Assembly: GCA_008501735.1 (NCBI GenBank)
Contig: QQUF01000006.1
Span: 1 to 59,088 of the forward strand
Reading direction: 5' to 3'
Source: Calditrichota bacterium
GTDB lineage: Bacteria > CLD3
DNA: 59,088 bases
Each line of letters begins with the position of its first letter. Positions within the stretch are counted from its first letter, which is position 1. This document shows, piece by piece, positions 1 through 59,088 of this stretch. The notes under the pieces were generated by a model. It did not search any database. It saw only the letters and a list, made by a program, of their open reading frames with translations, and was not told the origin of the DNA. A program made the position numbers and the translations under genes.

Positions 1-2243
1 AATTTTTTGGGTAAATTAGTAGTAAAAACTCTATAACCTTCATCAAGTTTGTCAACTTGCACACCAAGAAACTTTAAGGCTTGGACAACAAAATCATTTA
101 CCGTTTTGACATTTCCGATAGCTAAGTCAGTTTCTTTTAAATCGGCTTCAATTTCATCAGCTTTTATTGAGTGTTGTGCAAAAATGCTTCTTGAAAGAGT
201 TTCTCTTTTTTGAGCTTTTTGGTAAGCATTTGTAACTTCGAGTTCTTTTTTTGCAATTATGTCAGTTGATTCGCCGAAGTCCAATTTTATTTGTTGAGTC
301 GAAATTTTAGGCTCTGGTTGAAGCAAAACAGCATTCAGAACAGCGTCTAAAATGGACTTACTATTTTCAGGAAAAGGAACTGCAATTCCTGTTGTTCTAC
401 GAATTTCACGAGCTTTTCTAATCAAGACTTTTAAGACAACTCCATCAATTGGATTATTTTTCCCATAAAGTAGCATTATTTTTACTGTTGGACTATTTTG
501 TCCATAACGGTCAATTCTACCTTCACGCTGTTCAAGTTTATTTGGGTTCCAAGGTAAATCGTAGTGAAGAATAGCTGTAAAAGATTCTTGCAGATTTATT
601 CCTTCACTTAGGCAGGAAGTTGCAATTAGAACTCTTTTGGGAGAATTTCCCATTTCGGCAATAATTTCTTTTCTTTGCTCATCGTGAATTTCACCGGTTA
701 CAATTTCTACTGAAATATTTTTATAATCTTTTGCCAATTCTTTTTTTAAAAGGTCTCCGAGATAATTCGCTGTCGCAATGTAACGACAAAAGATTATCGG
801 ATTAAATCCTTGCTTAAGCCATTTTAGAGTTAATGCATAAGCTTCTTGAGCTTTTTTGTCATCTCTAAGGTTTTTGAGGTTTTCAAATTTATCTGCTAAA
901 TTTTTTAGAGTTCGACTTTGTAAATCTGTAATTTTTAATTTTTCGATTAATTGAGTTGGAGCAGTATCAGATTCATTTCCAAAATCATCGTCAAGAACAG
1001 GATTCGATTCATTTTCGTCGGTTAAGAAATTCTCGTCATCAATATAATTTCCAGCCTTTTTTCTTAGCATTTCGACTCCAGCGGCAGGACTTGAAATTAC
1101 TCCACGAAGCAAAGCTAAAGCAGACCAATATTTTAGCCTTTTTGAAAATTTACTTTCTTCTCCGGATTTAGTTAACCCCTTTGCAAAATTAAGGACTTCT
1201 GCAAAAAGGTTTTCGTAATTAGGTGAAAGTGTGTAAGAAAGTTCCTCAGCAATTCTTTTAGGAAAAGGAGTTTCTTCGTTCATCCATTTTTCAACGTCAG
1301 CTCTTCTTCTTTGGACAAAATGATTTGCTAATTCTTTTCTATTTTCGTCGGTCGTTACTGAAATTTCAACATTTTCAAATTTTGGTTTCAAAAGTCCGAG
1401 TAAAGATTGAAATTCTTCTTGTTTCCCACTGTGAGGAGTTGCGGAAATAAGAATTAAGTTTTGGTTTGCATTTTTGGAGATTTGGTGTAAAAGATGGTAA
1501 CGTTGTTGTTGAGCTATTGAAGCTCCGGAAGGTTTTGCACAAGTGTGTGCTTCATCAACGATTACAAGTTCAGGGCAACTTTGAGTAAAAATTTGTTTTC
1601 TTCTCTCAGATTTTATGTAATCGATAGAAATAATTTGAAAAGGAAAGAATTGATGGACATTTCTATCGTCTTGAATTTGTCTTTCCAATTTTGCTACAGT
1701 ACTTGAGCGAATAATTTCGGCTTCAATTGAGAATTTATTTTTAAGCTCTTCTTTCCATTGTTCGCATAAGTGTGGAAGACAAATCACTGCAAGAGATTTA
1801 ATTTCTCCTCTATCCAAAAGCTCCCTTGCGATTAATAGTGCTTCAATTGTTTTTCCAACTCCAACGTCATCAGCAATTAAAAGCCGAATAGGATTTTGCT
1901 TAAGAGCCATAATCAATGGAAGCATTTGATAAGAACGAGGTCTGAAGGAAAGTCTTGCGAGAGAGCGAAAAGGTCCTGCGGCATTTCTAAAGGAAAGTTT
2001 AGAGGCATTAAACAAAATTTTAGCTGATTCAAAATCACCCAAATTTTCGCCTGTAGGATTTGGAAATTCGGTTGAAGTTGGGATTTCGGCTTGGAATTGT
2101 AACGGAATATAAATTCCTGTAATTTCTTCTTCGGCTCCTCCAAGTGGTTTAATAATTATGATTTCAGAATCTGTAGAAGGTAAAATTACCCAATTTCTTT
2201 TTCTAAATTTTACTAAAGCACCTGGCTTAAATTCTCTGTTCAT
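1..2243 (-). CDS. SNF2/RapA-like helicase, DrmD-like (N-terminal part; continues across the circle join)
   Basis: This is the 5' part of a 950-codon gene that reads from 2243 down to 1 and continues at 58961 down to 58352. Frame is kept across the join. It is an SF2 ATPase of the SNF2/RapA class. Visible motifs are Walker A DDVGVGKT at about residues 125-132, Walker B DEAH at 230-233, motif III SATPHSG shortly after, and motif VI EGRIDRYGQ at about 574-582. It lies 59 bp downstream of the DUF1998 helicase gene on the same strand and overlaps the start of the adenine methylase gene, so the three are probably one operon. Among known systems the closest architecture is DrmD of class 1 DISARM, which also precedes an adenine methylase gene. 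That assignment is by family logic, not by search. A translocase role in phage restriction is inferred. Confidence 0.85.
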   Translation of the reverse strand, partial: MNREFKPGALVKFRKRNWVILPSTDSEIIIIKPLGGAEEEITGIYIPLQFQAEIPTSTEFPNPTGENLGDFESAKILFNASKLSFRNAAGPFRSLARLSFRPRSYQMLPLIMALKQNPIRLLIADDVGVGKTIEALLIARELLDRGEIKSLAVICLPHLCEQWKEELKNKFSIEAEIIRSSTVAKLERQIQDDRNVHQFFPFQIISIDYIKSERRKQIFTQSCPELVIVDEAHTCAKPSGASIAQQQRYHLLHQISKNANQNLILISATPHSGKQEEFQSLLGLLKPKFENVEISVTTDENRKELANHFVQRRRADVEKWMNEETPFPKRIAEELSYTLSPNYENLFAEVLNFAKGLTKSGEESKFSKRLKYWSALALLRGVISSPAAGVEMLRKKAGNYIDDENFLTDENESNPVLDDDFGNESDTAPTQLIEKLKITDLQSRTLKNLADKFENLKNLRDDKKAQEAYALTLKWLKQGFNPIIFCRYIATANYLGDLLKKELAKDYKNISVEIVTGEIHDEQRKEIIAEMGNSPKRVLIATSCLSEGINLQESFTAILHYDLPWNPNKLEQREGRIDRYGQNSPTVKIMLLYGKNNPIDGVVLKVLIRKAREIRRTTGIAVPFPENSKSILDAVLNAVLLQPEPKISTQQIKLDFGESTDIIAKKELEVTNAYQKAQKRETLSRSIFAQHSIKADEIEADLKETDLAIGNVKTVNDFVVQALKFLGVQVDKLDEGYRVFTTNLPKK

Positions 2244-2302
2244 TTTTTATTCTTAATTTTAAATTAATTTTGGGTTTTCCACAAGAGTAGTCATTACAAA
2301 AA

Positions 2303-5300
2303 TTAATTCCTAACAATTTTAAAAATATCAGGTCTTGATTTTACAAAACTTTCCAATGAATCTTTGTAGTTCCAAGTAAGTACTTGGAAACCATTGTCTT
2401 TTAAAACTTGTCTTTTGTTTTTGTCATCTTTTTTAATTTCGGTTTTGTCGTGAGGAGTTCCGTCACAAAAAATTACAATATTTGGTTTATATAGGAAATC
2501 AGGTCTAACAAAAAGGTTCGGTATTTTTGGTTGAGCTAAGTCAGGTAACTTTATGTTGTTTTTATAAAGGTATTTCAAAAATTTATCTTCTGTTTGTGAG
2601 TTTGGGTCTCTTGCATTTTGTAATTGTTCGTACTGCTCTTCATAGTTGGCAAAAGCTTTGTTAGAAACTATTTCAATTTGGCAATCCATTAGTTTCTGAA
2701 GAGCGTCTTTGATTAATCGTCTGTCAATTTCTTTATGGTGTCTTTGGTTGTAGTAAGAAAGTAAATCTTTATAAGTCGCAGGTAATAGTTTATTAATATC
2801 TTCTACTTCATTGTTGTTTTCATAAAAACAAATTTCGTAGGCTTGTTTAATAATTCTTTTGAAATTATCAACTTCAAAAATTAGTTGAGAAAGAATTCCC
2901 AGACTTCCTTCTGACGCTTCGTAAATAAAAATATTTGGTTGTTCTTTATCTCCCATTAAAACAACACCAATTTCATTTGACTCAACTTGAAACACACTTT
3001 CGATAGCTCTTTTTAGAGCGTATTGTAAAGTAATTACACCAGAAGTAGTAAGTGCCAATGCTTTTACAGGTTGTATGTAAAGTGCATTTGAAGTATCGCT
3101 TGTAATAAGTTTTACTCTTTTGATAGTATCTTTTTTCTCAGGATTCTCCTCTTGTTTCTTAGATTGCCAAAACCCTGTTCTTAAGTCTAAAGCAAATCCT
3201 TCTTCTTTTCCTGCTCTCCATTTGTTATTCAAATGATAAATCTTAGCTGGTTGAATTAAGTGAATGTTTAGGAGTTTATCGCCATTACTTAAAATATGAC
3301 TTTCTGTTGTTTTATCCATTCCTCCTGGGATAGAAAAGTAAGTTTGTATATCAAAACCTTGTGAGGTTCTTTCTTCCTCAGCACAAGAAATTCTTTCAGT
3401 TTGAATTGCTCTTGTTTCTGACATTTCTAAAATGTTAAAAAGGAAATCTCGATTTGAATCATTATCAAGTTTAGTTTGTAAGATTGGGTCAACCTCTTTT
3501 TCGTAATCAATTCCTTCCATTAATAAACTTGAATTCTTGCTAATTTTAACTTTTGTTAATTTATTTTCAGCTTCACTCAAAATTAATTGGTTAATTCGAA
3601 ATTTAGAGCCGTTGTGGTAAATTAAATTATTCGGACCGAATTCCCTTAAGGCAAGAAACCTTCCTCTGGAAATAAATTCTCCGCCAGACTTAGAATTTTC
3701 TACAAAAATCCTAAGTGGTAATCTTGTAAAATTATAACCTGGTAAAAATCCTTCGGAAGCAAAGTATCGATAAGGATAAAATTCCGAAAGCTGGCTTGCA
3801 TTGCCATAACTTTCATTCTTTAGTAAATCTCTTTGTCTAATTCCTTGTCTTTGGTCAATAAATGCATTTTTCCTTTCTTCACTATCCTTTCCAAAAACAG
3901 CATTTTCAAGTATTGCAGTTGCATTTAAAATTTGATTTTGAGCAGCTCTGAAAAGTCTTCTCCATCTATCAAGTTTCTCATTGAATAATTCTGGAGCTTT
4001 TTCAACGTTAAGTTTTGTCCAAGAATTGCTAAACCAACTTTGTTCTCTTAACTCTTTGAAGAGGTAATCATCATTGAGAACTTTATTAAAAGTTTTAATT
4101 ATTTCTATTTTTTCGGACTCATTGAGTTTTAAACTTTCGAGAACTTCATCTTTGAGGGGTAAATTTTTCAAATCATTAATGTCAATTAGTTCTGCAAGAG
4201 AGTTATCTAAAACCCTTAATCCTTTTTTTGAAATGTATAAGGAATGCAAATGAGTTTGCAAAAGCTCCTCATTTATTAGGTCAATTCTTGGTGGTGAAAC
4301 AGAACCTGCAACCATTTCAGCGGAGTTTTCAAAATAATATCTATCGTGTGGAGAATAATTAGAACAAAATGTAAAAACTAAAGCTGCTTGCCCACTTCTT
4401 CCTGCTCTTCCGCTTCTCTGAGCATAATTTGCAGAAGTTGGTGGGACATTTCTCATATGGACAATGCTTAAATCTTTAATATCTATTCCTAATTCCATTG
4501 TTGGAGAACAAAACAAAACACTCAAATCACCCTTACGAAATTCATCTTCCCGAATTTGTCTATCCTCGTTTCCAATTTGCCCTGTATGTTCATTTCCCTT
4601 AATCTTTTTCTTTTTTCCAAAATCTTGAAGATAAAAATCTTGGAAAAACTTATTTATTTTTTGTGTACCCTGATTTTCTTTAAAAGACCGAGTTCGGATT
4701 TTATCTTCATAAACATTTTTTAGATTTCCCTTTCTCCAAAGAATTTGATTTATTTGGAGTTGGTAAATTGAAACTTCCTCTTTCTTCTCATTTTTTACCT
4801 TAATCGATCGTAGTAAGCCCATTTCTTCAAGAAGGTCTAAAAATTTATAGAGTAATTTTTTATATTCTTCATTGTTTAAAATTATGTCATAAGTCTTAGC
4901 TTTTGATTTTATAAATTTTCCTAAATTACTTTGTGAGCCTATACTTGCAAGGAAAAGATTTCTCCTTGTTTTTTCTAATGTTTCTACTCTTAAGAAATAA
5001 GGTGAATCAATTTTTTCATCCGTATCAAGTCCATATTCAGCTTTGACTTTATCTTTAATTTGTTTTGTCTTTTGGGAAATCACACTTGTGTTAGAATCTA
5101 AATAATCATTTAGGTAAATTGCGTAACTTGTTCTAAAATAGTCCAAAATTTGACGAATAAAATCTTCTCTTTCTTCAATAGACATTCGCTCTAATAATGG
5201 AATATCTTTCCAATACTTATTTTCCTGTGAGTTTTCTTTCAAATATTTATATGAAATTTCTAACAAACCACATTGTTCTAAGTTTGGCATAATTACTCGC

Positions 5301-7447
5301 CAACTTCTTCTTAAATCCCAAATAAGTCGGTACAAAATAAAATCTTTAAAAGCATTTTCATTTTCAGATTTCGGTCCAGGAAAGTCTTTTGGGCTTAATG
5401 CAAATTCTTCTTGTGAAATATTTAATTCATTAAAAACTTGATTGGCAATATTGGAATAATCTAACTCATTGTTTGGAGCATTTTGTAGAGCTTTAAATAT
5501 AGCTGCTCTAAATTCACCACTTTTTATAAAATCATTAAAATGCCCAGATTGTAGAGAAGCATCTTGTCTATTATCTGTAAAACTCAGCAGCTTTTGGTCG
5601 TAAGGTGAAATACCTGCTTTTGCTAATTGTTGGAGTACAGAATAAGAAAGAACAGTTGTTGCCGTACTTCTTCCTTCGCTTCCTAACCTCATTAATTTTG
5701 TATTCTCTGAGGTTTGAGGAGGAAATATTGTACCAGAAGTTGGGTCAAAAAGCAAAGGTGCAGGCATAAACCACCCTTCTGAAATCAATTTGTTTTCAAA
5801 AGAGAAATTGCCTGAGTTATCAAAATATATTTTTCGAGGAGCCCTTTTCTGATATTTTTTTGAAATTGAAATTTCAGAGTTCTTTATTTTAAGCCAAGAG
5901 TCGGGTAATTGTTGTAAATGTTCATCAGGATTCCAAATAGGCTCTTGGTTTTCGTATTCAATAAAAATATACCCTTTGTCAAAAACTTGTCCTTCTTCTT
6001 GAATTTTATCTTGAAAATTTCTTGGTTCTAGAATTTGGTTCTCTTGGCTTAGTTTAACACAAATAAATTCGTGTCCCGAGTTTCTACTAAAAACAATAGG
6101 GAAAATAGGTCTATCATTTTTTTCTTCGTCTTTAATAAAAACCCCTGCCTCTAATGTTATTTTCCTTTTTTGAGGAGAATCAAGTGTTACATAAACTGAA
6201 CCTGTTTGTGCAATAAATTGATGTATTTTAAAAGGTAGGTAAGATTTTCCTCCTTTTAAAGAATTAGCCCATTTGAGTAATTTTATTAATTCGTTTTCAC
6301 AATTTTCATAAGATTCTCCGGAATAGGATTCAAGTTTCTTAATAATCTGAGTTAGTGTAATAGGTTTTTTTCTAACATAATTTCCTTCTTTTGCTTCAAT
6401 AGCAATTTCGTTTTCTAACCATACTGCTAATGAGTTTTGTTCAAAATCAGCAGAGGTTTTGGTATTTTGAAAAGTGTTCTTTATTTGAGCTTTGATGCTT
6501 TCTTTGTTAATGTTTCTAAAAACGAGTGAAGGCGTAAGTTTTTCAAAAATAATTTGATTTGAATAAATTTTGCCTCCAAACATTTTAGAGCCGACTTTGG
6601 CGACCTTATTTTGTTGGTCAATGAATGTTGCATTCTTATCAGAAAGCATAGTTGCAGAAGTTCCAATACAACATATTTTTTGGGAGCAATGAGCCTTAAT
6701 TCTTCTAATGAGCATTGCAACATCTGCTCCTTGTCTTCCTCTGTAAGTATGGAGTTCATCAAAAACGAGAAATTCTAAGTTCTCAGCAATTGAATTCCTT
6801 AATTGTGATTCACCTAATCGAGTCATTAATAATTCTAACATCATATAATTTGTCAGGATAATATCGGGCAGATTTTTTTTGATTTCCTCTCTTTTGTCAC
6901 TATTTTCTTGTCCTGTATAGCGTTCAAATGAAATTGGAAACTTAAGCCCTGTAATTTTTTCATAACCTTTTTGATATTTTGTAATTTCTTCTAGTTGTGA
7001 ATTAATTAAAGCATTCATCGGATAAACAATAATTGCCTTTATTCCTTTCTCTCTTTTCTGACTTTTTAAGAGATGGTTAAAAATTGAAGCTAAGTAAGTT
7101 AGAGATTTCCCTGACCCAGTTCCTGAGGTTACTATAAAATCTATTTTTTTTATGCCTAGTTCGATAGCTTCAACTTGATGTTGGTAAAGTCTAAATGTGT
7201 TATTTTGGCTATCCATAAATATCTTTTCAATATCTTTATGGATAATATTCTTATTAACAAGGTCTGAAATGCTTTTTGATTTTTGAAATGAAGGGTTGAA
7301 TTGAATTAATGGATCAGGAAGTAGATTTTTTGATTTTAAGTTCTTTTCAACTACAACTTTTATCTTTTTATCCTTAATCCTTATAAAACTTTCTATGTAA
7401 GTTTTATAATCTTGAACAATTCCATTGTGAATTTTGAAAATATCCAT
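2303..7447 (-). CDS. Large DUF1998 DEAD-box helicase with C-terminal Vsr/DUF559-like nuclease domain
   Basis: A 1714-residue SF2 helicase. Motifs: RLYQHQ at 86-91, Walker A SGTGSGKS at 108-115, LTNYMML at 198-204, DELH at 230-233, TSAT at 263-266 and motif VI QRSGRAGR at about 1010-1017. A DUF1998 region follows, with YEASEGSLGIL near 1505. The last 104 residues look like a Vsr/DUF559 PD-(D/E)XK-type fold, with TEDKF (E about 1620), RPDF (D about 1650), FCDG (D about 1662) and a later KR pair. The usual DUF1998 cysteine cluster before LLSYYNQ is mostly gone: one Cys near 1540, and ATYKDLL where CYxCLL is common. It is the first large gene of the defence-like operon, 67 bp after the MazF-like gene. 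Relatives include MrfA/YprA, DruE of Druantia, and a fused DrmA+DrmB-like arrangement. Which one fits best cannot be settled by eye. Confidence 0.85.
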   Translation of the reverse strand: MDIFKIHNGIVQDYKTYIESFIRIKDKKIKVVVEKNLKSKNLLPDPLIQFNPSFQKSKSISDLVNKNIIHKDIEKIFMDSQNNTFRLYQHQVEAIELGIKKIDFIVTSGTGSGKSLTYLASIFNHLLKSQKREKGIKAIIVYPMNALINSQLEEITKYQKGYEKITGLKFPISFERYTGQENSDKREEIKKNLPDIILTNYMMLELLMTRLGESQLRNSIAENLEFLVFDELHTYRGRQGADVAMLIRRIKAHCSQKICCIGTSATMLSDKNATFIDQQNKVAKVGSKMFGGKIYSNQIIFEKLTPSLVFRNINKESIKAQIKNTFQNTKTSADFEQNSLAVWLENEIAIEAKEGNYVRKKPITLTQIIKKLESYSGESYENCENELIKLLKWANSLKGGKSYLPFKIHQFIAQTGSVYVTLDSPQKRKITLEAGVFIKDEEKNDRPIFPIVFSRNSGHEFICVKLSQENQILEPRNFQDKIQEEGQVFDKGYIFIEYENQEPIWNPDEHLQQLPDSWLKIKNSEISISKKYQKRAPRKIYFDNSGNFSFENKLISEGWFMPAPLLFDPTSGTIFPPQTSENTKLMRLGSEGRSTATTVLSYSVLQQLAKAGISPYDQKLLSFTDNRQDASLQSGHFNDFIKSGEFRAAIFKALQNAPNNELDYSNIANQVFNELNISQEEFALSPKDFPGPKSENENAFKDFILYRLIWDLRRSWRVIMPNLEQCGLLEISYKYLKENSQENKYWKDIPLLERMSIEEREDFIRQILDYFRTSYAIYLNDYLDSNTSVISQKTKQIKDKVKAEYGLDTDEKIDSPYFLRVETLEKTRRNLFLASIGSQSNLGKFIKSKAKTYDIILNNEEYKKLLYKFLDLLEEMGLLRSIKVKNEKKEEVSIYQLQINQILWRKGNLKNVYEDKIRTRSFKENQGTQKINKFFQDFYLQDFGKKKKIKGNEHTGQIGNEDRQIREDEFRKGDLSVLFCSPTMELGIDIKDLSIVHMRNVPPTSANYAQRSGRAGRSGQAALVFTFCSNYSPHDRYYFENSAEMVAGSVSPPRIDLINEELLQTHLHSLYISKKGLRVLDNSLAELIDINDLKNLPLKDEVLESLKLNESEKIEIIKTFNKVLNDDYLFKELREQSWFSNSWTKLNVEKAPELFNEKLDRWRRLFRAAQNQILNATAILENAVFGKDSEERKNAFIDQRQGIRQRDLLKNESYGNASQLSEFYPYRYFASEGFLPGYNFTRLPLRIFVENSKSGGEFISRGRFLALREFGPNNLIYHNGSKFRINQLILSEAENKLTKVKISKNSSLLMEGIDYEKEVDPILQTKLDNDSNRDFLFNILEMSETRAIQTERISCAEEERTSQGFDIQTYFSIPGGMDKTTESHILSNGDKLLNIHLIQPAKIYHLNNKWRAGKEEGFALDLRTGFWQSKKQEENPEKKDTIKRVKLITSDTSNALYIQPVKALALTTSGVITLQYALKRAIESVFQVESNEIGVVLMGDKEQPNIFIYEASEGSLGILSQLIFEVDNFKRIIKQAYEICFYENNNEVEDINKLLPATYKDLLSYYNQRHHKEIDRRLIKDALQKLMDCQIEIVSNKAFANYEEQYEQLQNARDPNSQTEDKFLKYLYKNNIKLPDLAQPKIPNLFVRPDFLYKPNIVIFCDGTPHDKTEIKKDDKNKRQVLKDNGFQVLTWNYKDSLESFVKSRPDIFKIVRN

Positions 7448-7514
7448 TCTTTTTTACCTATTTTAAAATCAAATATTATTCATATCCATTTTAAGAGTAG
7501 TTCTGACTAAGTCT

Positions 7515-7859
7515 CTAATTTAGGAAGGTGTTAATTGATTTTGGGTTCTGCAAGTCCAATGCAAAATTCACCGCTTCGGATACTTGTTCTAATTTGACAA
7601 CTGTTAAAGAGGTAATTAACTTCCCAATTTTTGTTTTATCCACGGTTTGAATGTGGTCAAAATTTATTGCACAATCTTTTGGCATTCCATCAACTTTTCC
7701 AAGTAAGACTTCACTTGAAATATCGCGAATTGTAGTTGTAATCGGAGCAACTGTGATTTTATTCAAGTAAGGAATTACTGAATCTCGTGTTAAAATAAGA
7801 ACAGGTCTTTTTTTGTCAGGAGATTTGAAAGTAAAATATCTGATTTCTCCACGTTTCAT
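7515..7859 (-). CDS. MazF/PemK-family endoribonuclease toxin
   Basis: 114 residues with the MazF/PemK fold pattern: MKRGEIRY at the start, KKRPVLILTRD, then ITVAPITTTIRDI and the conserved INFDHIQTVDKTKIG stretch. Family members cleave mRNA at short motifs and are neutralised by a cognate antitoxin. The start codon shares one base with the antitoxin stop codon (TAATG), which implies translational coupling. It is 67 bp upstream of the DUF1998 helicase on the same strand, so it may share the transcript with the defence operon. Whether it acts as a plasmid stabiliser or as a guard for the defence genes is not visible in the sequence. Confidence 0.88.
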   Translation of the reverse strand: MKRGEIRYFTFKSPDKKRPVLILTRDSVIPYLNKITVAPITTTIRDISSEVLLGKVDGMPKDCAINFDHIQTVDKTKIGKLITSLTVVKLEQVSEAVNFALDLQNPKSINTFLN

Positions 7860-8089
7860 TAATCACTCCAAATCCCTTCATCGTTCCAATCTGGAAATTC
7901 ATCTTTTCCGACGGGATATTTTTCATATCCTTTTCTGTGCTTTTCTTCCAAAAATTTTATTTGGATTTTCTGTATAGCTTCTCTTAAAGCTATTCTTGTA
8001 AAAGCTGATCTTGTTGTTCCTAACTTTTGAGCAAGTTTGTCAACTTCCAAAAGCAAATTTTCATCAATTGTCATTTGAACAGTTTTCAT
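7859..8089 (-). CDS. Ribbon-helix-helix antitoxin (MazE/CopG-like)
   Basis: 76 residues. The N-terminus MKTVQMTIDENLLLEVDKLA is a ribbon-helix-helix DNA-binding motif. The acidic, Trp-rich tail (DEFPDWNDEGIWSD) is typical of an antitoxin's toxin-wrapping segment. An upstream TTG at 8152 would lengthen the frame by 21 codons. I prefer the ATG at 8089 because AGGTG sits just before it and because the longer version would cover a good promoter-like sequence. It forms a pair with the downstream MazF-like toxin gene and probably represses its own promoter. Confidence 0.85.
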   Translation of the reverse strand: MKTVQMTIDENLLLEVDKLAQKLGTTRSAFTRIALREAIQKIQIKFLEEKHRKGYEKYPVGKDEFPDWNDEGIWSD

Positions 8090-8113
8090 TATCGCACCTA
8101 TTTTATATGTAAG

Positions 8114-8152
8114 ATTATAGCTATAAAATAGTGTATTTGGAATGGTTGTCAA
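8114..8152 (-). promoter_or_regulatory. Promoter and operator of the MazEF-like pair
   Basis: On the minus strand a perfect TTGACA lies at 8152-8147. A TATTTT-like -10 follows after about 16 bases. Farther down is TATAAT (8119-8114), inside the perfect 12-bp palindrome TTATAGCTATAA (8115-8126). A palindrome over the start region is what an autoregulating ribbon-helix-helix antitoxin would bind. Which of the two -10 candidates is used cannot be decided from sequence. Confidence 0.5.
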
Positions 8153-9320: not shown

Positions 9321-10712
9321 TTAATTTTCTTTAAGTAAACTAACTAATTCAGTGATACTTTTTTTCGCATCACCAAAAACCATCATTGTTTTTTCGTCAT
9401 AAAATAGTTCGTTATCAACTCCTGCAAATCCAGAGCTTAAACTTCTTTTAAAAATCATCACACTTTTTGCCTTATCAACATTCAAAATCGGCATTCCATA
9501 AAGTGGACTTTGTTTATCGGTTCTTGCTGCAGGGTTAATTACATCATTTGCACCTATCACCAAAACAAGGTCTGTATTTTGGAAATCGTCGTTGATTTCG
9601 TCCAAATCACAAAGCGTGTCGTAAGGAACATTCGCTTCTGCAAGCAAAACATTCATATGACCAGGCATTCTTCCCGCAACAGGATGAATTGCGTAACGGA
9701 CCTTTCCACCTTGCGAACCAATAATACTTGCCATTTCTTGAACAATGTGCTGACCTTGTGCAACAGCAAGTCCGTATCCTGGCACAATGATTATTGATTG
9801 AGCATTCTCTAACATAAGAACTGCATCTTCAGGAGTATAACGAGTAACGTTTCTTTGTTCAGTTGAACCTTGAGCTCCTGAACTTCCACCGGAATCATCA
9901 GTTCCAACTGCTCCAAAAATTACGTTTGCAAGTGAACGATTCATTGCAACACACATAATTTTTGTAAGAATTATTCCTGAAGCTCCGACTAAAGCACCAC
10001 TAATTATCAAAATATTATTTCCAAGTACAAAACCTGTTGTAGCTGCGGCAATTCCAGAATAGGAATTTAAAAGCGAAATTACAACTGGCATATCCGCTCC
10101 ACCAATCGGAATTACAAGTAAAACTCCAAGCAAGGAAGCAATTCCCAAAATTATGAGCAAATCCATTTCTTGAGTTGGGTCAAAAATAAAGTAGCCACTA
10201 AGTCCGATGAAACCAATAAACAAAAGTAAATTTATAATTTGCTGTCCACCAAAAACAACAGGAGCAGAGGTAATAAAACCTTGCAATTTTCCAAAAGCAA
10301 TGAAACTTCCTGTCAATGTCAATGCTCCAATAAAGAGACTTAGAAGCATCGCAACCGAAACATCGTAAGAAAAAATTGCAACCGAATCAGCTCCATAATA
10401 TTCGGCTAAGGCAACGAATGCTGAAGCTCCTCCTCCAAGTCCATTAAAAATCGCAACCATTTGAGGCATAGAAGTCATTTCAACTTTCTTCGCAACAATC
10501 ACACCTATTAAACTTCCAACAACAACTCCAACAATAATGTATTGAAAATCCACAATTCCTTGGTCTAAAAGTGTAACTACAACTGCGATAAGCATTGCAA
10601 TCATTGAAAACTGATTACCTTGTCTCGCTGTTTTTGCCGAACCTAATTTTTTCAAACCAAGAATAAAAAAAATGGAAGCTATTAAATATGCGATTTGAGT
10701 TATAATATTCAT
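9321..10712 (-). CDS. pntB: NAD(P) transhydrogenase subunit beta
   Basis: 463 residues, against about 462 for E. coli PntB. An N-terminal half of about nine hydrophobic segments is the membrane domain II (for example GLGGGASAFVALAEYYG and GGADMPVVISLLNSYSG). It is followed by the NADP(H)-binding domain III with the IIVPGYGLAVAQGQ fingerprint at about residue 308. It couples hydride transfer from NADH to NADP+ with proton movement across the inner membrane, giving NADPH for biosynthesis. It is the last gene of the pntAA-pntAB-pntB operon; only 11 bp separate it from pntAB. Confidence 0.96.
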   Translation of the reverse strand: MNIITQIAYLIASIFFILGLKKLGSAKTARQGNQFSMIAMLIAVVVTLLDQGIVDFQYIIVGVVVGSLIGVIVAKKVEMTSMPQMVAIFNGLGGGASAFVALAEYYGADSVAIFSYDVSVAMLLSLFIGALTLTGSFIAFGKLQGFITSAPVVFGGQQIINLLLFIGFIGLSGYFIFDPTQEMDLLIILGIASLLGVLLVIPIGGADMPVVISLLNSYSGIAAATTGFVLGNNILIISGALVGASGIILTKIMCVAMNRSLANVIFGAVGTDDSGGSSGAQGSTEQRNVTRYTPEDAVLMLENAQSIIIVPGYGLAVAQGQHIVQEMASIIGSQGGKVRYAIHPVAGRMPGHMNVLLAEANVPYDTLCDLDEINDDFQNTDLVLVIGANDVINPAARTDKQSPLYGMPILNVDKAKSVMIFKRSLSSGFAGVDNELFYDEKTMMVFGDAKKSITELVSLLKEN

Positions 10713-17064: not shown

Positions 17065-17694
17065 TTATTTTTTTCTAATTTTTTCTTTGATTTTTCTGAC
17101 TCTAATAAAACGATGAAGGTTTTGCCTTGAAGTTCCAATAATTTTTGCAATTGCTTGAATGCTAACTTCTTTCTTCAAAAGTTCTTCTATTGTTTCAGTG
17201 TGAGGATCTAATTTTGATTTTGAGGTTGAGCCTTTAGGTCTTCCAAGTTTAATTCCTTGAGCTTTTTTGGTGGCAAGAGCTTGTTTAGTTCTTTCAGAAA
17301 TCCTTTGCCTTTCTAGGTCGTTGATTGCTGAAAGCATTGGAATCAAAAGTTTTGCCGTAATGCTATCCGCTCCGTTGATCACTAAATTTTCTTTAATCAA
17401 TCTTAATTCAATATCTTTCCGCAGAAGTTCTTGAATTGTTTGAAGAACTTCAATTGTATCTCTTCCCATTCTCGACAACTCGGAAACAACCAAAGTATCA
17501 TTTTCTTGAATTGAGTTTAAAAGTAAAACTAATTGTTTTCTCTCCTTTTTCTCTTTTTGGGTAGAAATAACCTCTTGATAAACATTTGAGGTTTTCAAAT
17601 CAAGACTTTTAGCTTTGCAATAATCTACAATTTCAAAAAGCTGATTACTCAAATTTTGTTTGTCAGTCGAAACTCTAATGTATCCGTAAATCAT
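17065..17694 (-). CDS. Small serine recombinase (resolvase family)
   Basis: 209 residues. The N-terminal catalytic domain starts IYGYIRVSTDKQN with nucleophile Ser9, then has VSELSRMGRDTIEVLQ and the LERQRISERTKQAL arm. A C-terminal helix-turn-helix follows (SIQAIAKIIGTSRQNLHRFI). Size and domain order match Tn3-type resolvases and DNA invertases. On a circular plasmid the simplest role is resolving multimers to monomers. It is divergent from 17926, and the intergenic region carries the repeats expected of a resolution site. Confidence 0.92.
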   Translation of the reverse strand: MIYGYIRVSTDKQNLSNQLFEIVDYCKAKSLDLKTSNVYQEVISTQKEKKERKQLVLLLNSIQENDTLVVSELSRMGRDTIEVLQTIQELLRKDIELRLIKENLVINGADSITAKLLIPMLSAINDLERQRISERTKQALATKKAQGIKLGRPKGSTSKSKLDPHTETIEELLKKEVSIQAIAKIIGTSRQNLHRFIRVRKIKEKIRKK

Positions 17695-22438: not shown

Positions 22439-23818
22439 ATGTATAAAAATAATAAAATCACCAAATCAAATTCTTTCATTGAAGCTCGGTATAAACTTTC
22501 ACTTGCTGAACAACGTTTGGTTTTGTCTGTAATCTCACAAATTGAGCCTGATGACGAAGATTTTAATACTTATTCTATAAATGTTTCGGATTTCGTTGAA
22601 CTTGCTGGAGTACGCAATAAGAATGCTTACAGCCAAATGAAAAAAATCACTGACAGTTTGCAGACAAAGTTAATAATTATTAATAAAGGTGATTCCGAAT
22701 TAAGAGCCACTTGGTTTTCGACAGCTGAATATTTTAAAGGAAAAGGTTACGTTGAGGTTGAAATTTCTCCTAAGTTGAAACCTTACTTGCTTAAACTTAA
22801 AGAGCGTTTTACAACTTATAAATTAAGAACTGTGATGCAACTTAAGAGTATTTATTCAATCAGAATTTATGAACTTCTTAAACAATACGAGAAAATTGGA
22901 AAGCGTGTTTTTGTTGTCGAAGAATTAAAAGAAAAACTTGGAGTCGAAAAAAAATATTCACTCTACGGTGATTTTAAGAAAAAAATTCTTCAAGTCGCTG
23001 AAAAAGAATTAGCTGAGAAAACGGATATTTATTTCACTTTCAAAGAAGTCAAAGAAGGTAGAAAAGTTACTTTTATTGATTTTACTATTCTTCCAACAAA
23101 ACTTGGAGAATCTGTTAGTGAAGGGAAAATTTCGGAAATGGATTCAGAAGTTGTTTTGGATTTAATTTCTTTCGGAATGAATAAAGAGATTTCATTGGAA
23201 ATTTTACACAAGAAATGGACTTTTTTACAAAATAGAAGTGTTAAAGATTCTTATAATTCGGAGTTGCAATTTGCCGATTATATTCGAGCACAGATTTCTT
23301 ACGTAAACGAGAAGATGAAAAAAGGAACTGCAAAAGACCCTGTTCCTTATCTGTTAAAAGCTATTAAAGAAGGCTATGCAAATGTTGACGAGTTTCTAAA
23401 AACCAAACGTGAAAGAGAGTTAAAAAGACTAAATTTTGAAATTGAGAAGCTCAAAGAAGAGTTAATTAATTTTAAAAATAGACTGACTCTTGAAATAGAA
23501 TTAGCGATTGAAGAAATGGTTACTGAGAACCCTGAATTAGTGGACGAAGCGGTAATTCATTTAAGAAAAATTGATAATTCTTCAGTTAAGCTTCGTTACA
23601 ACAATTCTTTTAGTGCTTTAGAAAATTATAAAAAGAAAACACCAATTCGATTAGCTGTAAACGAATTTTTAGAGAATCGTTTTCCTGAAAGTTTTCATAA
23701 GCCTGTAGAAAAATATGAAAAAAATGTTAGGAAAGTTAATAGGCATATTTTAGAATTTGAAGAAAGGATGAATTATCTAAAGGATAAACTTGGCAAGAGA
23801 CAGACAAAATTATTTTAG
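22439..23818 (+). CDS. Replication initiator protein (Rep_3/RepB family)
   Basis: 459 residues. The N-terminus (ITKSNSFIEARYKLSLAEQRLVLSVIS) and the following winged-helix segments, including LRTVMQLKSIYSIRIYELLKQYE, match the Rep_3 initiator superfamily. It would bind the iterons upstream and open the origin. After the two winged-helix domains (to about residue 220) there is a long Lys/Glu-rich tail with coiled-coil character at 320-345 and beyond, longer than in many Rep_3 proteins. Its stop codon overlaps the convergent sohB-like gene by 4 bp. Confidence 0.92.
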   Translation: MYKNNKITKSNSFIEARYKLSLAEQRLVLSVISQIEPDDEDFNTYSINVSDFVELAGVRNKNAYSQMKKITDSLQTKLIIINKGDSELRATWFSTAEYFKGKGYVEVEISPKLKPYLLKLKERFTTYKLRTVMQLKSIYSIRIYELLKQYEKIGKRVFVVEELKEKLGVEKKYSLYGDFKKKILQVAEKELAEKTDIYFTFKEVKEGRKVTFIDFTILPTKLGESVSEGKISEMDSEVVLDLISFGMNKEISLEILHKKWTFLQNRSVKDSYNSELQFADYIRAQISYVNEKMKKGTAKDPVPYLLKAIKEGYANVDEFLKTKRERELKRLNFEIEKLKEELINFKNRLTLEIELAIEEMVTENPELVDEAVIHLRKIDNSSVKLRYNNSFSALENYKKKTPIRLAVNEFLENRFPESFHKPVEKYEKNVRKVNRHILEFEERMNYLKDKLGKRQTKLF

Positions 23819-28800: not shown

Positions 28801-29531
28801 CTTTACTCAAGAAAATTATTGACGAAAAACTTTTGAAAGCAAAAGCAGTTGTTGGGTTTTTCCCCGCGAACAGTGTTGGTGATGACATTGAAATTTATTC
28901 CGATGAAACAAGGTCTGAAATTCAGGAAGTTTTCCACACAATCCGTCAACAGTCAGAAAAAAGGGAAAGTCAAAATCTTTCCCTTTCAGATTTTGTCGCT
29001 CCAAAAGATTCTGAGAAAAAAGACTACGTTGGACTTTTCGCTGTTACGACAGGAATTGGAATTGGAAAATTAGTTGAAAAATTTGAAGCTGACCTCGACG
29101 ACTACAACAGCATAATGACAAAAGCACTTGCTGACCGATTAGCAGAAGCATTTGCTGAGACTCTTCACAAAAAAGTTAGAACGGAACTTTGGGGTTATTC
29201 TCCAAACGAACTTTTGTCAACGGAGGATTTGATTAGCGAAAATTATCGTGGGATTCGTCCTGCTCCTGGTTATCCAGCTCAACCTGACCACACAGAAAAA
29301 CCAATTCTTTTTAATTTACTCGAAGTGGAAAAACACACAGGAATTAAATTGACAGGAAGTTATGCAATGTTCCCAACAGCTTCCGTTTGTGGAATTTATT
29401 TTGGAAATGAAGAAGCAAAGTATTTTGGAGTTGGTAAAATTTCAAAAGACCAAGTTGAAGATTATGCCAGAAGAAAGAACCTTTCGGTTGAAGAAGTTGA
29501 ACGTTGGCTTTCACCTCATTTGAATTACTAA
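25866..29531 (+). CDS. metH: Cobalamin-dependent methionine synthase
   Basis: 1221 residues (E. coli 1227) with all four modules in order. These are the homocysteine domain from the start ([12 protein letters not shown], zinc cysteines in GLNCALG and [10 protein letters not shown]), the pterin-binding domain ([13 protein letters not shown]), the cap plus B12 domain with [11 protein letters not shown] (ligand His at about 755), and the C-terminal activation domain with [12 protein letters not shown]. It transfers a methyl group from methyltetrahydrofolate to homocysteine via cobalamin. No cobalamin riboswitch is apparent: the upstream gap is only 143 bp and lacks a recognisable B12 box. The gene is intact and ends at a good terminator. 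Confidence 0.97.
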
Positions 29532-40034: not shown

Positions 40035-40342
40035 TTGTTTAACTCTTCGTCAATTGTCGGAATAAGCGAATCGATTAAAATTTTGTGCATACTTTTACCT
40101 GTTTTTTCGCTAATGAATTTCAACTTCAGAAAATGTGGTTCAGGCAATCTTAGAATAAATTGTTTTTTTACGTCCTCACGAATTGACGGATTTTCCCAAG
40201 GGAAATTTTCAACACTAACCTCTTTTTTAGAATTTTTATCAGAAGTTTTTGCTGCGTTGATGAAACTATCCAATTTAGCTTGGTCTTCTTCGGTATTTTT
40301 AGTCGGTGGTTTGCTGATTAGTTTATTTTTAGTTTTACTCAT
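40025..40342 (-). CDS. Ribbon-helix-helix centromere-binding partner of ParA (ParG-like)
   Basis: 105 residues. The N-terminal 50 are polar and flexible (Lys, Thr, Ser, Glu). The C-terminal part (KKQFILRLPEPHFLKLKFISEKTGKSMHKILIDSLIP) reads as a ribbon-helix-helix domain. Its start overlaps the parA stop by 4 bp. This layout matches type Ib partition, where a short ParF/ParA ATPase is followed by a small ribbon-helix-helix protein with a disordered tail that binds the centromere and the operon promoter. The heptad sites around the operon are its likely targets. Confidence 0.82.
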   Translation of the reverse strand: MSKTKNKLISKPPTKNTEEDQAKLDSFINAAKTSDKNSKKEVSVENFPWENPSIREDVKKQFILRLPEPHFLKLKFISEKTGKSMHKILIDSLIPTIDEELNNII

Positions 40343-53533: not shown

Positions 53534-53536
53534 TTT

Positions 53537-54588: not shown

Positions 54589-57500
54589 TTACTCCTTTTT
54601 CTCTTGTAAATGAATTTGGTGGTTGAGTTCTAAAAGCCTTTTTAAAATTTCTTTTCGTGTGTCGGGTGAAATTGTATAACGGACTCTGTCGTTTTCGGGT
54701 AAAAATTCCAATTCGTAAAAATCGTGAGCTAATTCCAAGTCTTGCCAACCGTAAGCCTTTTTGACTGCTTTGTCCATTTCTTTGTGAAGCTCTCGGAGTT
54801 TCAGAATGTCCAAGTAAGCCTCTTCCGAAATTTCAGCTGTTTGTTTGGAGTTTTTCAAAACCAAGTTCGGACTTAAGTCTTTGCTGTGAAAAAGATTGTA
54901 AGTTTTGGTTAAGCCAAGTTTCATTTTTACCATCAAGTTTTTACGGAACTCGTAGTAAGTCTCGCCGATTTTCTCAAGTTCTGACGTTGTTTCTTCGCTC
55001 AAGTTTTGTGGAAATGGGAAAGTTTCAAAAATTGAAGAAGGAGTGTAACGTATTCGAGATTCTAAAGTTGAGGCGTATTTCCAAGCCCAATGGAAATGAA
55101 AATTTGATTGAAGAGTTGAAAATGAAAAATATTTTTCAAACGCAAAAGTGTTAGTTGCATCCGAGAAAACAAATTTTGAAGGTGCAAATGAAAAAGCTAT
55201 TGTTTTACTGGTTCTTGCCACAACCAAAACTCGCTCTAAAGGCTTGATTGTTCGGTAAAGTTTAGGTCTCTTTTCTCCGTAAATCCACCATTTTTGTGGT
55301 AATGGTTTTCTTAACGCATAAACTCCCTCTAAATCATTTCCGACTTTATCCTTCTTCCATCTTTGCCTCTCAGGCTTCACCAATCTTTCCACAATTTCAA
55401 AACAGTCAGGGTATTCTTTTCTACATTTTTCTTCTTCCCAATCGAAAAAATTAATTACCCAACGACTTGGACTTTGGTCAAAATTTGAATTCAAATCCGA
55501 GCCGTTTAAGTAAGGAAAAAGAACGTCTTTGTTTTTCGGATTCAGTTTGATTAGTCTTTTTGCTTCGTGTGGTTTTAAGACAAATCCTGAACCCAAAACA
55601 ATTGAACCTTGAAAACTTTTATTTTGGTTTTGAACTAAAGAGAAAGGATTTCCAAGAGTTTCTGAACTGTCTAAAAATGATGTGATTTGGGAAACATCAT
55701 TTTGGTCTAAAACAAATTTTCTTTTCCATTCTCCTTTAAAAACTGAAACAAGAGAAACTTCAACTGCCGCAACTCCGGGCCACTTCATTGATTTTACAGC
55801 AAAATTAATTCTTCCACCGTTTTTTTCAATAACTTCTAAACCGCCTTTTCTTGCACTTCCTTGAGCAATTGTGTTAGTGGAAATCAAAGAAAGAAAACCA
55901 TTCTTTTTAATCAGTTTAAAAGCTTGTCTAAAAAAATAAGTTACTAAGTCAACAGAACCCGCAGGAGCAAAAACAGTTTTTACGTAATTCAAAAAGCCGT
56001 TTCCAAAAAGTCCACTTAACCTTTGTCCGCCCAAAAATGGAGGATTTCCGATTACCAAATCAAAACCGCCTTTTGAAATTACTTCGGGAAACTCCAAGAA
56101 CCAGTGAAAGAAAGACTTTCTCACACTAATTGTGTCCGCTTCGTAAACAAAATTTTTGTAAGTCTTTTGAGAACTTCCGATAAAGTTAAAGTAGTCGTAA
56201 TTTGTGCAAAGTTTGTCTTGGTTGTCAAAAGTTTTTGGAATGAAAAATTGAGCAATTCTTAAGTTTGCGGATTGGTTTAGTTTTTGCCAAGTTGAGCCTT
56301 TTAAAGCGTCTTGAAATACTTGTGCTTTTCTCTCGTAATCCTTAGCAGAGTCATCTGGTAATTCATCAAGTTTTTTATATTTTTCCAAAATTTCCGAAAA
56401 GTCATTTGAGTAAACATAAAAATTCATTTGGTCTTTCGATGAGCTAAAATTTTTGTTACTCGTTCTAAATTTTTTCAAAACTTCGTTGTCGTCTCCGGGA
56501 AGTTTTTTGAAGGCTTCATTTGGAATTCCTTCTTTTAATTCTTCGATTTTTGTAACTCCGACTATCGAATCGCCTGTGCGAATTCTGTGGTCTAAAAAAG
56601 TAAGAGGCATTCCCGGATTGTGAGCTTCGAGCCAAAGCGAAACTTTGCAAAGTTCGACGGCAAGCGGATTTTTATCGACTCCGTAAATGCAGTGTCGAAT
56701 TACGTCACGGATTGCTTTTCGGAAATCTTTTGGGTTTGGTTGTTCTTCGTCTGTTCTAATTCTTGCAAGTTCGAGAGCTAATTTTCTTGAGGTTGAAAGT
56801 AAAATGTGTCCGCTTCCGCAAGCGATGTCGCAGATTTTAATTTTGAGTAAAGAATCGGCAATTAATTCTTTAGGTGAAATTCCGAATTTTTGAGATTGCT
56901 CTTTTGCTTTTCGGATTTTTTCCTCAATCACAAACTCAAGTGAATTTTTAATCAAAGGTTGAACCAATTCTTCGGGAGTGTAATGAGAGCCTGAAGAAGA
57001 ACGATTTGGGCTTTCCTCTAATTTTGCAGAAACATTTTCATTTTCAATTTTGAAAACGATTTCGTAATCCAAAAGTTTTTCGTAAACCGAGCCGAATTCT
57101 TCAACGTTCAAAGAAGCGTAGTTCACACGCATTTTTTGGTGAGTTACAGGATTTGTAAAAAAACTCAAATTTCTAACAGCTTCAAGCAAACATTTGTTAG
57201 AGATTTCGCAATTTATGAATTCGCCAATTGCACCACTTCCGAACAAATCTCCACCAAGCGGAGCAATTCCGAGTTTTTGCCCGTGAATTTCCGATTCAAA
57301 AAGTTTGAAGGAAATTTTTAAACCTTGCCAAAGGTCAGAGAATTTTTCTTCATCGAAGAATCTGTTTTCAACTAATTTTCTAAGTTTTGAAATGCTGTAA
57401 AATTTGTAATAAATTTCTTTTTTTCTCTTTTGAGCTTCATCTAAGTTTTCAGGAAAAACAATATTCCTCTCTTCGATTACCATCAAAAAAAGCATTCTGT

Positions 57501-58365
57501 AAATTATTCTAAGAAGGTTTTGATAAAAGTCTTCTTTAGAAAGTTTTTGGCTCAAAATTTCATCTCTTAATCTTTGGTTATCTTTTTGGGCAAGAAAACC
57601 GTTAGCGAGTTCAAAGATTGACCTTTTCACAGCTTCACTCAAACCGTCTCTGATTCTTGAACCTGTTTCCAAAGTGTCCTGATGATATTTTTCCAAAATA
57701 CAATTGGAGGCTTCACTTTGAGTTTTTGAAAAGCGGCTAAAATGTAAAATTCTAAAAAGTAGAGCAAATTCAGCGTACTGGTCTTCTTCCATCATTTCTT
57801 TGAGGTCAAATTCCAAAAATGAAAGTCTGACAAGCCTTCCCGAATCTCTGACAAGCCTTAGGAGAAAGCCGTTTGTAACAAGTCCGAAAAGGTGTTCTGT
57901 AACATTTACGTATTCTTGCACCAAACCGTGAGGGGAAATTCTTGGACCGCCTTCTTTACTTTTTTTATCCAAACTGTAATTAAAACCAGTTACAAAAATT
58001 GGAAATCCGTCTAAGTTCGTTGCTCTGTGACTAATTGCATAACTTTTTCCATTTACCTCTTCGGCTTTTGCAATTTCAGGCTGAAAACCAAGTAGTCTTA
58101 GAAGTGGCAAAATCCATTCGTTTCTTGTTTCGGTAGTTCCTTTTGCATTCTCATCTAAACGTTCAATTTTTCTATTAAAAATTTTCCAATAATCTTTAGC
58201 ACTTGCCCAAGCAAAAGCAATTTCGTCCTTTAATTTTACATTTTGGTCGAAAGTAAAATCGCTTGGAAGTTGTCCACCCGATTCGTTAGAATCAAATTTA
58301 TCAATAACTTCTTGTGAAATGATGTTTCCTTCAATTCTGATGCAAGACAATTTAATTTCCTCCAT
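54589..58365 (-). CDS. Large Eco57I-like N6-adenine DNA methylase (DrmMI-like)
   Basis: About 1258 residues from the ATG at 58365; a TTG one codon upstream is also possible. Residues 1-430 are a helical N-terminal domain. HYTPEELVQPLI introduces the methylase core, with SAM motif I IKICDIACGSGHILLS near 507 and catalytic motif IV LVIGNPPFLGG near 774. A specificity-like C-terminal region follows. NPPF places it among gamma-type N6-adenine methylases of the Eco57I/PglX-like class. It overlaps the SNF2 helicase gene by 14 bp. In class 1 DISARM an adenine methylase likewise follows the SNF2 gene. It may mark self DNA. No separate restriction endonuclease is seen. Confidence 0.87.
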   Translation of the reverse strand: MEEIKLSCIRIEGNIISQEVIDKFDSNESGGQLPSDFTFDQNVKLKDEIAFAWASAKDYWKIFNRKIERLDENAKGTTETRNEWILPLLRLLGFQPEIAKAEEVNGKSYAISHRATNLDGFPIFVTGFNYSLDKKSKEGGPRISPHGLVQEYVNVTEHLFGLVTNGFLLRLVRDSGRLVRLSFLEFDLKEMMEEDQYAEFALLFRILHFSRFSKTQSEASNCILEKYHQDTLETGSRIRDGLSEAVKRSIFELANGFLAQKDNQRLRDEILSQKLSKEDFYQNLLRIIYRMLFLMVIEERNIVFPENLDEAQKRKKEIYYKFYSISKLRKLVENRFFDEEKFSDLWQGLKISFKLFESEIHGQKLGIAPLGGDLFGSGAIGEFINCEISNKCLLEAVRNLSFFTNPVTHQKMRVNYASLNVEEFGSVYEKLLDYEIVFKIENENVSAKLEESPNRSSSGSHYTPEELVQPLIKNSLEFVIEEKIRKAKEQSQKFGISPKELIADSLLKIKICDIACGSGHILLSTSRKLALELARIRTDEEQPNPKDFRKAIRDVIRHCIYGVDKNPLAVELCKVSLWLEAHNPGMPLTFLDHRIRTGDSIVGVTKIEELKEGIPNEAFKKLPGDDNEVLKKFRTSNKNFSSSKDQMNFYVYSNDFSEILEKYKKLDELPDDSAKDYERKAQVFQDALKGSTWQKLNQSANLRIAQFFIPKTFDNQDKLCTNYDYFNFIGSSQKTYKNFVYEADTISVRKSFFHWFLEFPEVISKGGFDLVIGNPPFLGGQRLSGLFGNGFLNYVKTVFAPAGSVDLVTYFFRQAFKLIKKNGFLSLISTNTIAQGSARKGGLEVIEKNGGRINFAVKSMKWPGVAAVEVSLVSVFKGEWKRKFVLDQNDVSQITSFLDSSETLGNPFSLVQNQNKSFQGSIVLGSGFVLKPHEAKRLIKLNPKNKDVLFPYLNGSDLNSNFDQSPSRWVINFFDWEEEKCRKEYPDCFEIVERLVKPERQRWKKDKVGNDLEGVYALRKPLPQKWWIYGEKRPKLYRTIKPLERVLVVARTSKTIAFSFAPSKFVFSDATNTFAFEKYFSFSTLQSNFHFHWAWKYASTLESRIRYTPSSIFETFPFPQNLSEETTSELEKIGETYYEFRKNLMVKMKLGLTKTYNLFHSKDLSPNLVLKNSKQTAEISEEAYLDILKLRELHKEMDKAVKKAYGWQDLELAHDFYELEFLPENDRVRYTISPDTRKEILKRLLELNHQIHLQEKKE

Positions 58366-59088
58366 CAAAATTTACTTCCGGCAAGATTACATAAATTCCC
58401 ATTAAATCCATTGGAAAAACAGGTTCAACCACTTTAAATTTTTTGCCACCAACTACTTTTCTAAATCTTTCGTGAGCCTCAACTAATTTCTCAGCTCTTG
58501 TTTTAGAAAGTTCTTCTAAATGAATTTTCATTTCAGAAAGGTTTTCTAACTCTTGTTCAAGCCAATAGTTCTGTTCTTCTTTTGTAAGATTTTGAGTCGG
58601 ACTGATTTCAAAAAGCAATTTATTTGCTTCCTCGTAACTTAAGAAAGCAGACTTTTGGAAATCGCCTTGAAAGCCCCAAAGAAACATTTCTTCTGCGACA
58701 ATTTCGTGATTTCCATTTTGTTCCGAAATTACATTTCTGACTCTAAACTGCATTAAAGTAGTTTTAATTTTCACTTGATTCGTTCGAATTACCGAAGCTC
58801 TCGAAGGGCTGTGTTGGTTTGTTTTTTCGATTGAATTATTGACAAGTTCTTGACACATTTGTTCTACAAAAATATGATTTCTTCCCAAATATTTAAAACC
58901 TTTAGGAGTTGGAGAATCAAAAGAGATTAGGACTTCATTTTTACTTCCGAGTAAAGGCTTTAATTTTTTGGGTAAATTAGTAGTAAAAACTCTATAACCT
59001 TCATCAAGTTTGTCAACTTGCACACCAAGAAACTTTAAGGCTTGGACAACAAAATCATTTACCGTTTTGACATTTCCGATAGCTAAGT
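58352..59088 (-). CDS. SNF2/RapA-like helicase, C-terminal part (joins 1-2243)
   Basis: This is the continuation of the helicase gene that starts at 2243. Because 58962-59088 repeats 1-127, the real coding path is 2243-1 followed by 58961-58352. This segment carries the last 200 or so residues, including the helical ELENLSEMKIHLEELSKTRAEKLVEAHERF stretch, and ends FDGGN. Read alone it looks like a 223-residue protein starting at 59023, but that Met is internal (codon 728). It overlaps the methylase start by 14 bp. Confidence 0.85.
   Translation of the reverse strand, partial: LAIGNVKTVNDFVVQALKFLGVQVDKLDEGYRVFTTNLPKKLKPLLGSKNEVLISFDSPTPKGFKYLGRNHIFVEQMCQELVNNSIEKTNQHSPSRASVIRTNQVKIKTTLMQFRVRNVISEQNGNHEIVAEEMFLWGFQGDFQKSAFLSYEEANKLLFEISPTQNLTKEEQNYWLEQELENLSEMKIHLEELSKTRAEKLVEAHERFRKVVGGKKFKVVEPVFPMDLMGIYVILPEVNFDGGN
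58962..59088. repeat. 127-bp terminal redundancy: circle closure
   Basis: These 127 bases are identical to 1-127 and are in direct orientation. A direct overlap of this kind at the two ends of an assembled sequence, inside a coding frame that stays open across it, means that the molecule is circular with a unique length of 58,961 bp. A true terminal direct repeat of a linear element would not be expected to restore a gene. Confidence 0.92.

Follow-up and report, generated by a model that had tools for sequence, protein, structure and literature searches.

The 59,088-nt stretch of DNA analysed here (the window) is a plasmid carrying an ARMADA Type I antiphage operon, whose helicase belongs to a zinc-free clade whose zinc sites were lost together, apparently once; we put the probability of this reading at about 0.75. 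By itself the trio is just one more ARMADA Type I locus, and the ARMADA trio is already described in the main text of Bell et al. 2025 (PMC12458937). What is new relative to that text is the concerted loss of three zinc sites in the helicase.

The window begins and ends with the same 127 bases and so closes to a 58,961-bp circle in which positions 58962-59088 duplicate 1-127. The window is thus a complete circular replicon, a 59-kb plasmid with a single Rep3-type initiator (22439-23818), a ParA (40339-40983) and a resolvase (17065-17694). The operon sits between two toxin-antitoxin-like pairs, a PemK-like toxin with an RHH antitoxin upstream (7515-8152) and a PIN protein with DUF6364 downstream (53120-53776). 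The interval that an earlier note on this DNA had assigned to the operon, 1-8152, holds operon genes and also takes in the PemK/RHH pair. This pair was rejected as part of the operon, as it is not conserved beside relatives (PemK homologue in 1 of 95 loci), and the gene after the methylase, encoding a 201-aa SAM methyltransferase, was rejected on the same ground. The plasmid also carries an exopolysaccharide export and glycosyltransferase cluster. A metH-like methionine synthase (25866-29531) and a pntB-like transhydrogenase beta subunit (9321-10712) are the sole copies found in the assembly and both lie on the plasmid, which may therefore be a chromid-like, indispensable replicon.

The operon is transcribed from the minus strand in the order helicase (7447-2303), SNF2-type ATPase (2243-join-58352) and methylase (58368-54589), and all three large open reading frames of the earlier note were present as described. 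The first gene (2303..7447, minus strand) encodes an ArmC-like YprA/DUF1998 helicase of 1714 aa with Pfam matches to DEAD, Helicase_C and MZB/DUF1998. Motif scanning placed its Walker A sequence GTGSGKS at residues 109-115 (K114; 7103..7123, minus strand); Walker B is at D230 (DELH), and the Walker motif columns are invariant in alignments of relatives. The C-terminus (residues 1612-1714; 2306..2614, minus strand) forms a Vsr/DUF559-type PD-(D/E)xK nuclease domain, whose E1620, D1650, D1662 and H1666 are conserved in the 28 zinc-free relatives; Pfam DUF559 scored just under its cut-off here (19.8 vs 20.6 bits), and the structure model is confident in this region. The ArmA-like SNF2/RapA (BrxHII-like) ATPase is encoded by codons 1-747 of 950 at 1..2243 and, from the join to the stop, at 58352..58961, both on the minus strand. 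Joining the contig ends over the 127-nt terminal overlap gave a single 950-aa frame with no internal stops, and the DpdE profile continues into the 3' part. By motif scan its Walker A (residues 124-132, K131) and DEAH at 230 (D230) are intact. The third gene (54589..58368, minus strand) starts with TTG, overlaps the 3' end of the SNF2 gene by 17 nt and encodes an ArmB-like Eco57I/PglX-type adenine-specific DNA methylase of 1259 aa (Pfam Eco57I, MmeI_Mtase and MmeI_TRD), in which the scan found the SAM motif DIACGSG at 514 and NPPF at 775 intact.

The three proteins matched defence profiles in PADLOC far beyond chance: the helicase had DruE3 as its top profile (5e-88), the SNF2 protein scored best with DpdE (2e-163) and DrmD (5e-87), and the methylase matched DrmMI (9e-242). 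These matches bear out the earlier reading of the genes as a defence operon that resembles class 1 DISARM in placing an adenine methylase after an SNF2 protein, and Druantia in its DruE-like helicase. It was also right that the helicase and DUF1998 form a single protein with its own C-terminal nuclease, and that a separate drmC is absent from the operon genes; no phospholipase D gene was found among the operon and flanking genes searched. The proposal that the trio had no name did not survive, since it fits ARMADA Type I (main text of PMC12458937), a named system to which all its genes can be assigned, an outcome the earlier note itself had listed as counting against it.

In the main text of Bell et al. 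(PMC12458937), ARMADA Type I consists of a YprA-like helicase, then a BrxHII/RapA-like ATPase, then a PglX-like methylase, an order reversed only in many archaea and cyanobacteria. Its helicase, closest to that of Druantia, is described there as carrying OB-CON-DUF1998 in fused form and ending in a Vsr-type nuclease. We assign the window trio to this type because its gene set, order and domain make-up match that description: the trio is present, the order is YprA, BrxHII-like, PglX-like, and the fused Vsr-type nuclease has its active-site residues. As in Type I, there is no ArmD. In our trees, in which Type I was recognised by gene order and absence of ArmD and which do not include the reference ARMADA Type I protein of Bell et al. 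(WP_108720193.1), the helicase falls on the Type I side of the Type I/II split. The helicase model has a run of helices at about 315-396 that could correspond to a BrxA-like helical domain after RecA1. The trait that differs is the zinc modules, including the DUF1998 cluster: the window helicase lacks all three zinc sites examined. According to the main text of PMC12458937, zinc modules occur throughout the defensive YprA helicases, with Dpd the only case for which it mentions a lost DUF1998 cluster. We treat these modules as a trait of the YprA family and not as a criterion of membership, because Dpd helicases stay in the family without the cluster and because, in the trees, the zinc-free clade branches from within zinc-bearing ARMADA Type I.

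It is highly improbable that the operon is instead a separate system without a name, a compact hybrid of DISARM and Druantia. Its profile matches are indeed split over DruE, DpdE, DrmD and DrmMI, and several curated NCBIfam cut-offs were not reached, among them that of DrmD on the SNF2 protein. However, PADLOC-DB 2.0.0 (2023) is older than the ARMADA name, and ARMADA Type I as published in the main text of PMC12458937 comprises exactly these three genes in the same order with the fused nuclease, a match that led us to reject a new hybrid. The related suggestion that the operon is a DISARM made compact, with one protein standing in for DrmA, DrmB and the nuclease, is not the best view of it: in that text, YprA proteins usually have helicase, OB, CON and DUF1998 fused in one chain, and the DrmA/DrmB split is peculiar to DISARM.

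With class 1 DISARM the window operon shares relatives of the SNF2-like DrmD and of the adenine methylase DrmMI and a YprA-family helicase with DUF1998 function, but it lacks the DrmA/DrmB split and the DrmC phospholipase D nuclease. DruE gives the closest helicase profiles and is likewise a single-chain helicase with DUF1998 and a C-terminal nuclease. In contrast to Druantia, neither DruH nor a DruA-D or DruM-F-G partner was found among the neighbouring genes searched, the window has an SNF2 protein and a methylase instead, and its nuclease is Vsr-like whereas that of Druantia Type III is a phospholipase D pair. Dpd shares the best SNF2 profile (DpdE) and helicases that have likewise lost the DUF1998 zinc cluster, but the window has no adjoining 7-deazaguanine genes and its helicase fits DruE profiles far better than DpdJ. 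ARMADA Type II, of the E. coli NCTC 12900 type, is represented among our loci by an E. coli plasmid (L121), in which all eight residues mutated by Bell et al. are present at their numbers. Its ArmA, ArmB and ArmC align gene for gene with the window SNF2 protein, methylase and helicase, with the same catalytic residues. Type II differs in its order, ArmA-ArmB-ArmC-ArmD, and in having a RelE-GajB-like ArmD, whereas in the window the helicase comes first and the 201-aa SAM methyltransferase follows the methylase; the helicases are only distantly alike (22-38% in pieces).

In an alignment of 89 helicases, the cysteine columns split the sequences into two groups. Three sites with 12 ligands were scored (window numbering): C454/C457/C568/C571 in a beta-barrel inserted in RecA2, C1303/C1306/C1320/C1323 in an OB fold insert, and H1541/C1554/C1558/C1561 in DUF1998 (MZB). 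Further zinc modules, outside these three sites, are placed by Bell et al. near the end of the MarR-like domain (main text of PMC12458937). In the window helicase, the first half of the barrel site has changed from FCRxCG to FSRNSG (residues 454-457; 6077..6088, minus strand) and the second half from CxxC to DPTS (residues 568-571; 5735..5746, minus strand). The CxxC...CxxC of the OB insert is lost (residues 1303-1323; 3479..3541, minus strand), and at the DUF1998 site H...CxxxCxxC has become F...LxxxTxxD (residues 1541-1561; 2765..2827, minus strand). Among the matches listed, the 64 zinc-bearing ARMADA Type I helicases keep all four barrel cysteines and all four OB cysteines (64/64 each), and the DUF1998 ligands are kept in 62-63 of 64; the three sites score 4/4/4 in 61 sequences and 4/4/3 in two, and the remaining one ends before the DUF1998 site. 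Among the 28 zinc-free helicases in the same matches, the window included, no site retains more than two of four ligands, the OB insert too has at most 2/4 in any sequence, the DUF1998 ligands are lost, and the commonest remnant is C1320 alone. CxxC motifs number 0-2 per protein in the zinc-free group vs 4-9 in the zinc-bearing one, and the window protein lacks the CxxC cluster of its relatives. The outgroups (ARMADA Type II, Thermus, Haloquadratum and DruE) have cysteines at nearly all scored positions. From the ligand positions, we infer that the window helicase probably holds no bound zinc.

An alignment artefact was ruled out, as the flanks align without doubt (FCRxCG to FSRxSG, CYxCLLSY to SYxDLLSY). 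General avoidance of cysteine was ruled out as well: the density of non-ligand cysteines is equal in zinc-free and zinc-bearing helicases (8.94 vs 8.95 per 1000 aa, p = 0.71), and cysteine density in the SNF2 and methylase partners of zinc-free helicases is not lower. Cysteine as such is thus not avoided, which points to loss of zinc in particular, and no matching zinc loss was seen in the SNF2 protein or the methylase. The replacement residues are themselves conserved in the zinc-free group (S454, S/T457 and D568 in 28/28, S/T1558 in 26/28, D1561 in 25/28). Conserved replacements together with undiminished non-ligand cysteines make the loss of the zinc sites look specific and selected, not like decay. 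A decaying, inactive helicase in a relic locus would explain the disappearance of a family-characteristic zinc cluster and the long branch leading to the clade (0.48-0.57 changes per column), but we consider it very unlikely: reading frames of ~5 kb are open in most of the 28 relatives from many phyla, helicase and nuclease residues are intact, the SNF2 and methylase partners are retained, and S454 and D568 would hardly be invariant in a relic.

Homologues were gathered from plasmids, GTDB genomes and viral contigs. The genome scan, whose query alignment had the window protein at its head, covered the best 80 matches, which makes the extent and limits given here for the zinc-free clade provisional. 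With the zinc columns excluded, the 28 zinc-free helicases formed one clade in a quick tree of 95 rows (SH-aLRT 100), and 14 of them did so in a mixture-model tree of 36 rows (bootstrap/SH-aLRT 100/100). The clade is nested among zinc-bearing ARMADA Type I helicases, and its members are recorded as coming from Bacteroidota, Ignavibacteriota, Lentisphaerota, Planctomycetota, Armatimonadota, Spirochaetota, Thermodesulfobacteriota, Myxococcota and Pseudomonadota. Of the phylum to which the window belongs, 9 genomes were searched, and none gave a full-length homologue. The sequences thus suggest that the three sites, with their 12 ligands, were lost together, all-or-none, apparently in one event. 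The SNF2 partners of zinc-free helicases also form one clade (support 99), while the methylase partners need three changes on the tree, showing that methylases have been exchanged.

Models of helicase residues 1-700 and 1070-1714 had a mean pLDDT of 89. The best PDB match for both was MrfA, followed for the C-terminal part by DrmAB chain B. TM-scores to MrfA were low (0.27-0.29), because only parts of the larger protein align. The models, which cannot show metal, predict that the folds survive without the zinc ligands.

The same trio was found in other genomes. Among the matches listed, and counting loci flanked by >7 kb on one side or both, it is complete in 18 of the 21 zinc-free loci and in 40 of the 47 zinc-bearing ones. 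In nine of the ten exceptions the contig ends too soon downstream. The tenth is a Planktothrix plasmid (L027, 4561-15031), where an intact ARMADA Type I helicase adjoins an SNF2 fragment, with no methylase match. Wherever all three genes could be ordered in zinc-free loci among these matches, the order was helicase-SNF2-methylase; it is reversed in cyanobacterial and haloarchaeal loci, in agreement with the main text of PMC12458937. Seven zinc-free loci (L034, L038, L040, L044, L046, L055 and L065) have one or two extra, mutually different genes between the SNF2 gene and the methylase, which makes this position look like a site for accessory genes. In Deinococcus radiodurans R1, the ARMADA Type I methylase on plasmid MP1 (L033, 17946-21497) is annotated as two genes, whereas D. 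radiophilus (L029) has one long gene; the methylase is possibly broken in the D. radiodurans type strain.

The antiphage function of the window operon is inferred from its relatives. The experiments of Bell et al. concern ARMADA Type II, for which the main text of PMC12458937 reports strong, non-abortive phage restriction; cells survive, and the effect depends on each of the four genes as well as on the motifs of helicase and methylase. By analogy, the window operon most likely provides a restriction-like, non-abortive defence; lacking ArmD, Type I may work differently from Type II. As in BREX and DISARM relatives, the PglX-like methylase would protect self by marking the DNA of the host, probably on adenine N6 within a short site. 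The methylase and the SNF2/RapA-like translocase would then engage unmarked incoming or replicating DNA, and the YprA helicase would be loaded and translocate on single strands like its relative MrfA (Bell et al., main text of PMC12458937, citing Roske 2021). Finally, the C-terminal Vsr-type nuclease would cut, destroying the invader without killing the cell, as in ARMADA Type II. In the zinc-free clade the helicase would perform all these steps without zinc, and the conserved S, T and D residues presumably hold the same folds together. The location of the operon, on a Rep3/ParA plasmid between two toxin-antitoxin pairs, could also suit competition between plasmids or other mobile DNA, or plasmid maintenance, as its main use; several relatives are plasmid-borne, and DISARM is reported to act on plasmid conjugation (PMC9142583). 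We find this unlikely, since being carried on a plasmid does not determine what a system targets, many relatives occur on contigs without plasmid signs, and ARMADA Type II restricts phages strongly according to the main text of PMC12458937.

The loss may have to do with the supply of zinc, with escape from a phage factor directed at zinc, or with new contacts. As three unrelated domains changed together, a cause that concerns zinc as such is favoured. Our tentative proposal, which we hold as possible and short of probable, is a zinc-free ARMADA Type I subtype in which three sites in three domains were swapped once, together, for conserved polar residues, and which works without zinc and could act when zinc is scarce or when the sites would be attacked. 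We give a smaller yet real chance to the loss being adaptive for reasons other than metal supply, through escape from a phage factor attacking zinc sites or new contacts with a co-evolving SNF2 protein. The SNF2 partners do form a matching clade, and the helicase clade spans aerobes and anaerobes of many phyla, with no single metal-poor habitat evident. On the other side, a contact cause would be expected to touch one site first, whereas the sites lie in three different domains, and we know of no phage factor that attacks zinc sites.

The zinc-free clade bears on what the metal sites do in defence helicases of the YprA family. For DISARM, they have been suggested to act either in redox sensing or structurally (Bravo et al., PMC9142583), and DruE reportedly has four zinc clusters that stabilise elements flanking the DNA channel (PMC13192584). 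That a natural clade keeps folds, motor and nuclease, and its other cysteines, while all three sites are gone suggests that zinc is not indispensable for the architecture. Pairs of zinc-free and zinc-bearing helicases in the same operon type offer a direct test of sensing versus structure and may help to settle the role of the sites.

At the ARMADA Type II locus of L121 (1-18258), on an 85-kb IncY E. coli plasmid, another large DEAD/DEAH helicase, possibly DruE, immediately precedes the operon, an arrangement that resembles the chromosomal arrays in the main text of Bell et al. (PMC12458937).
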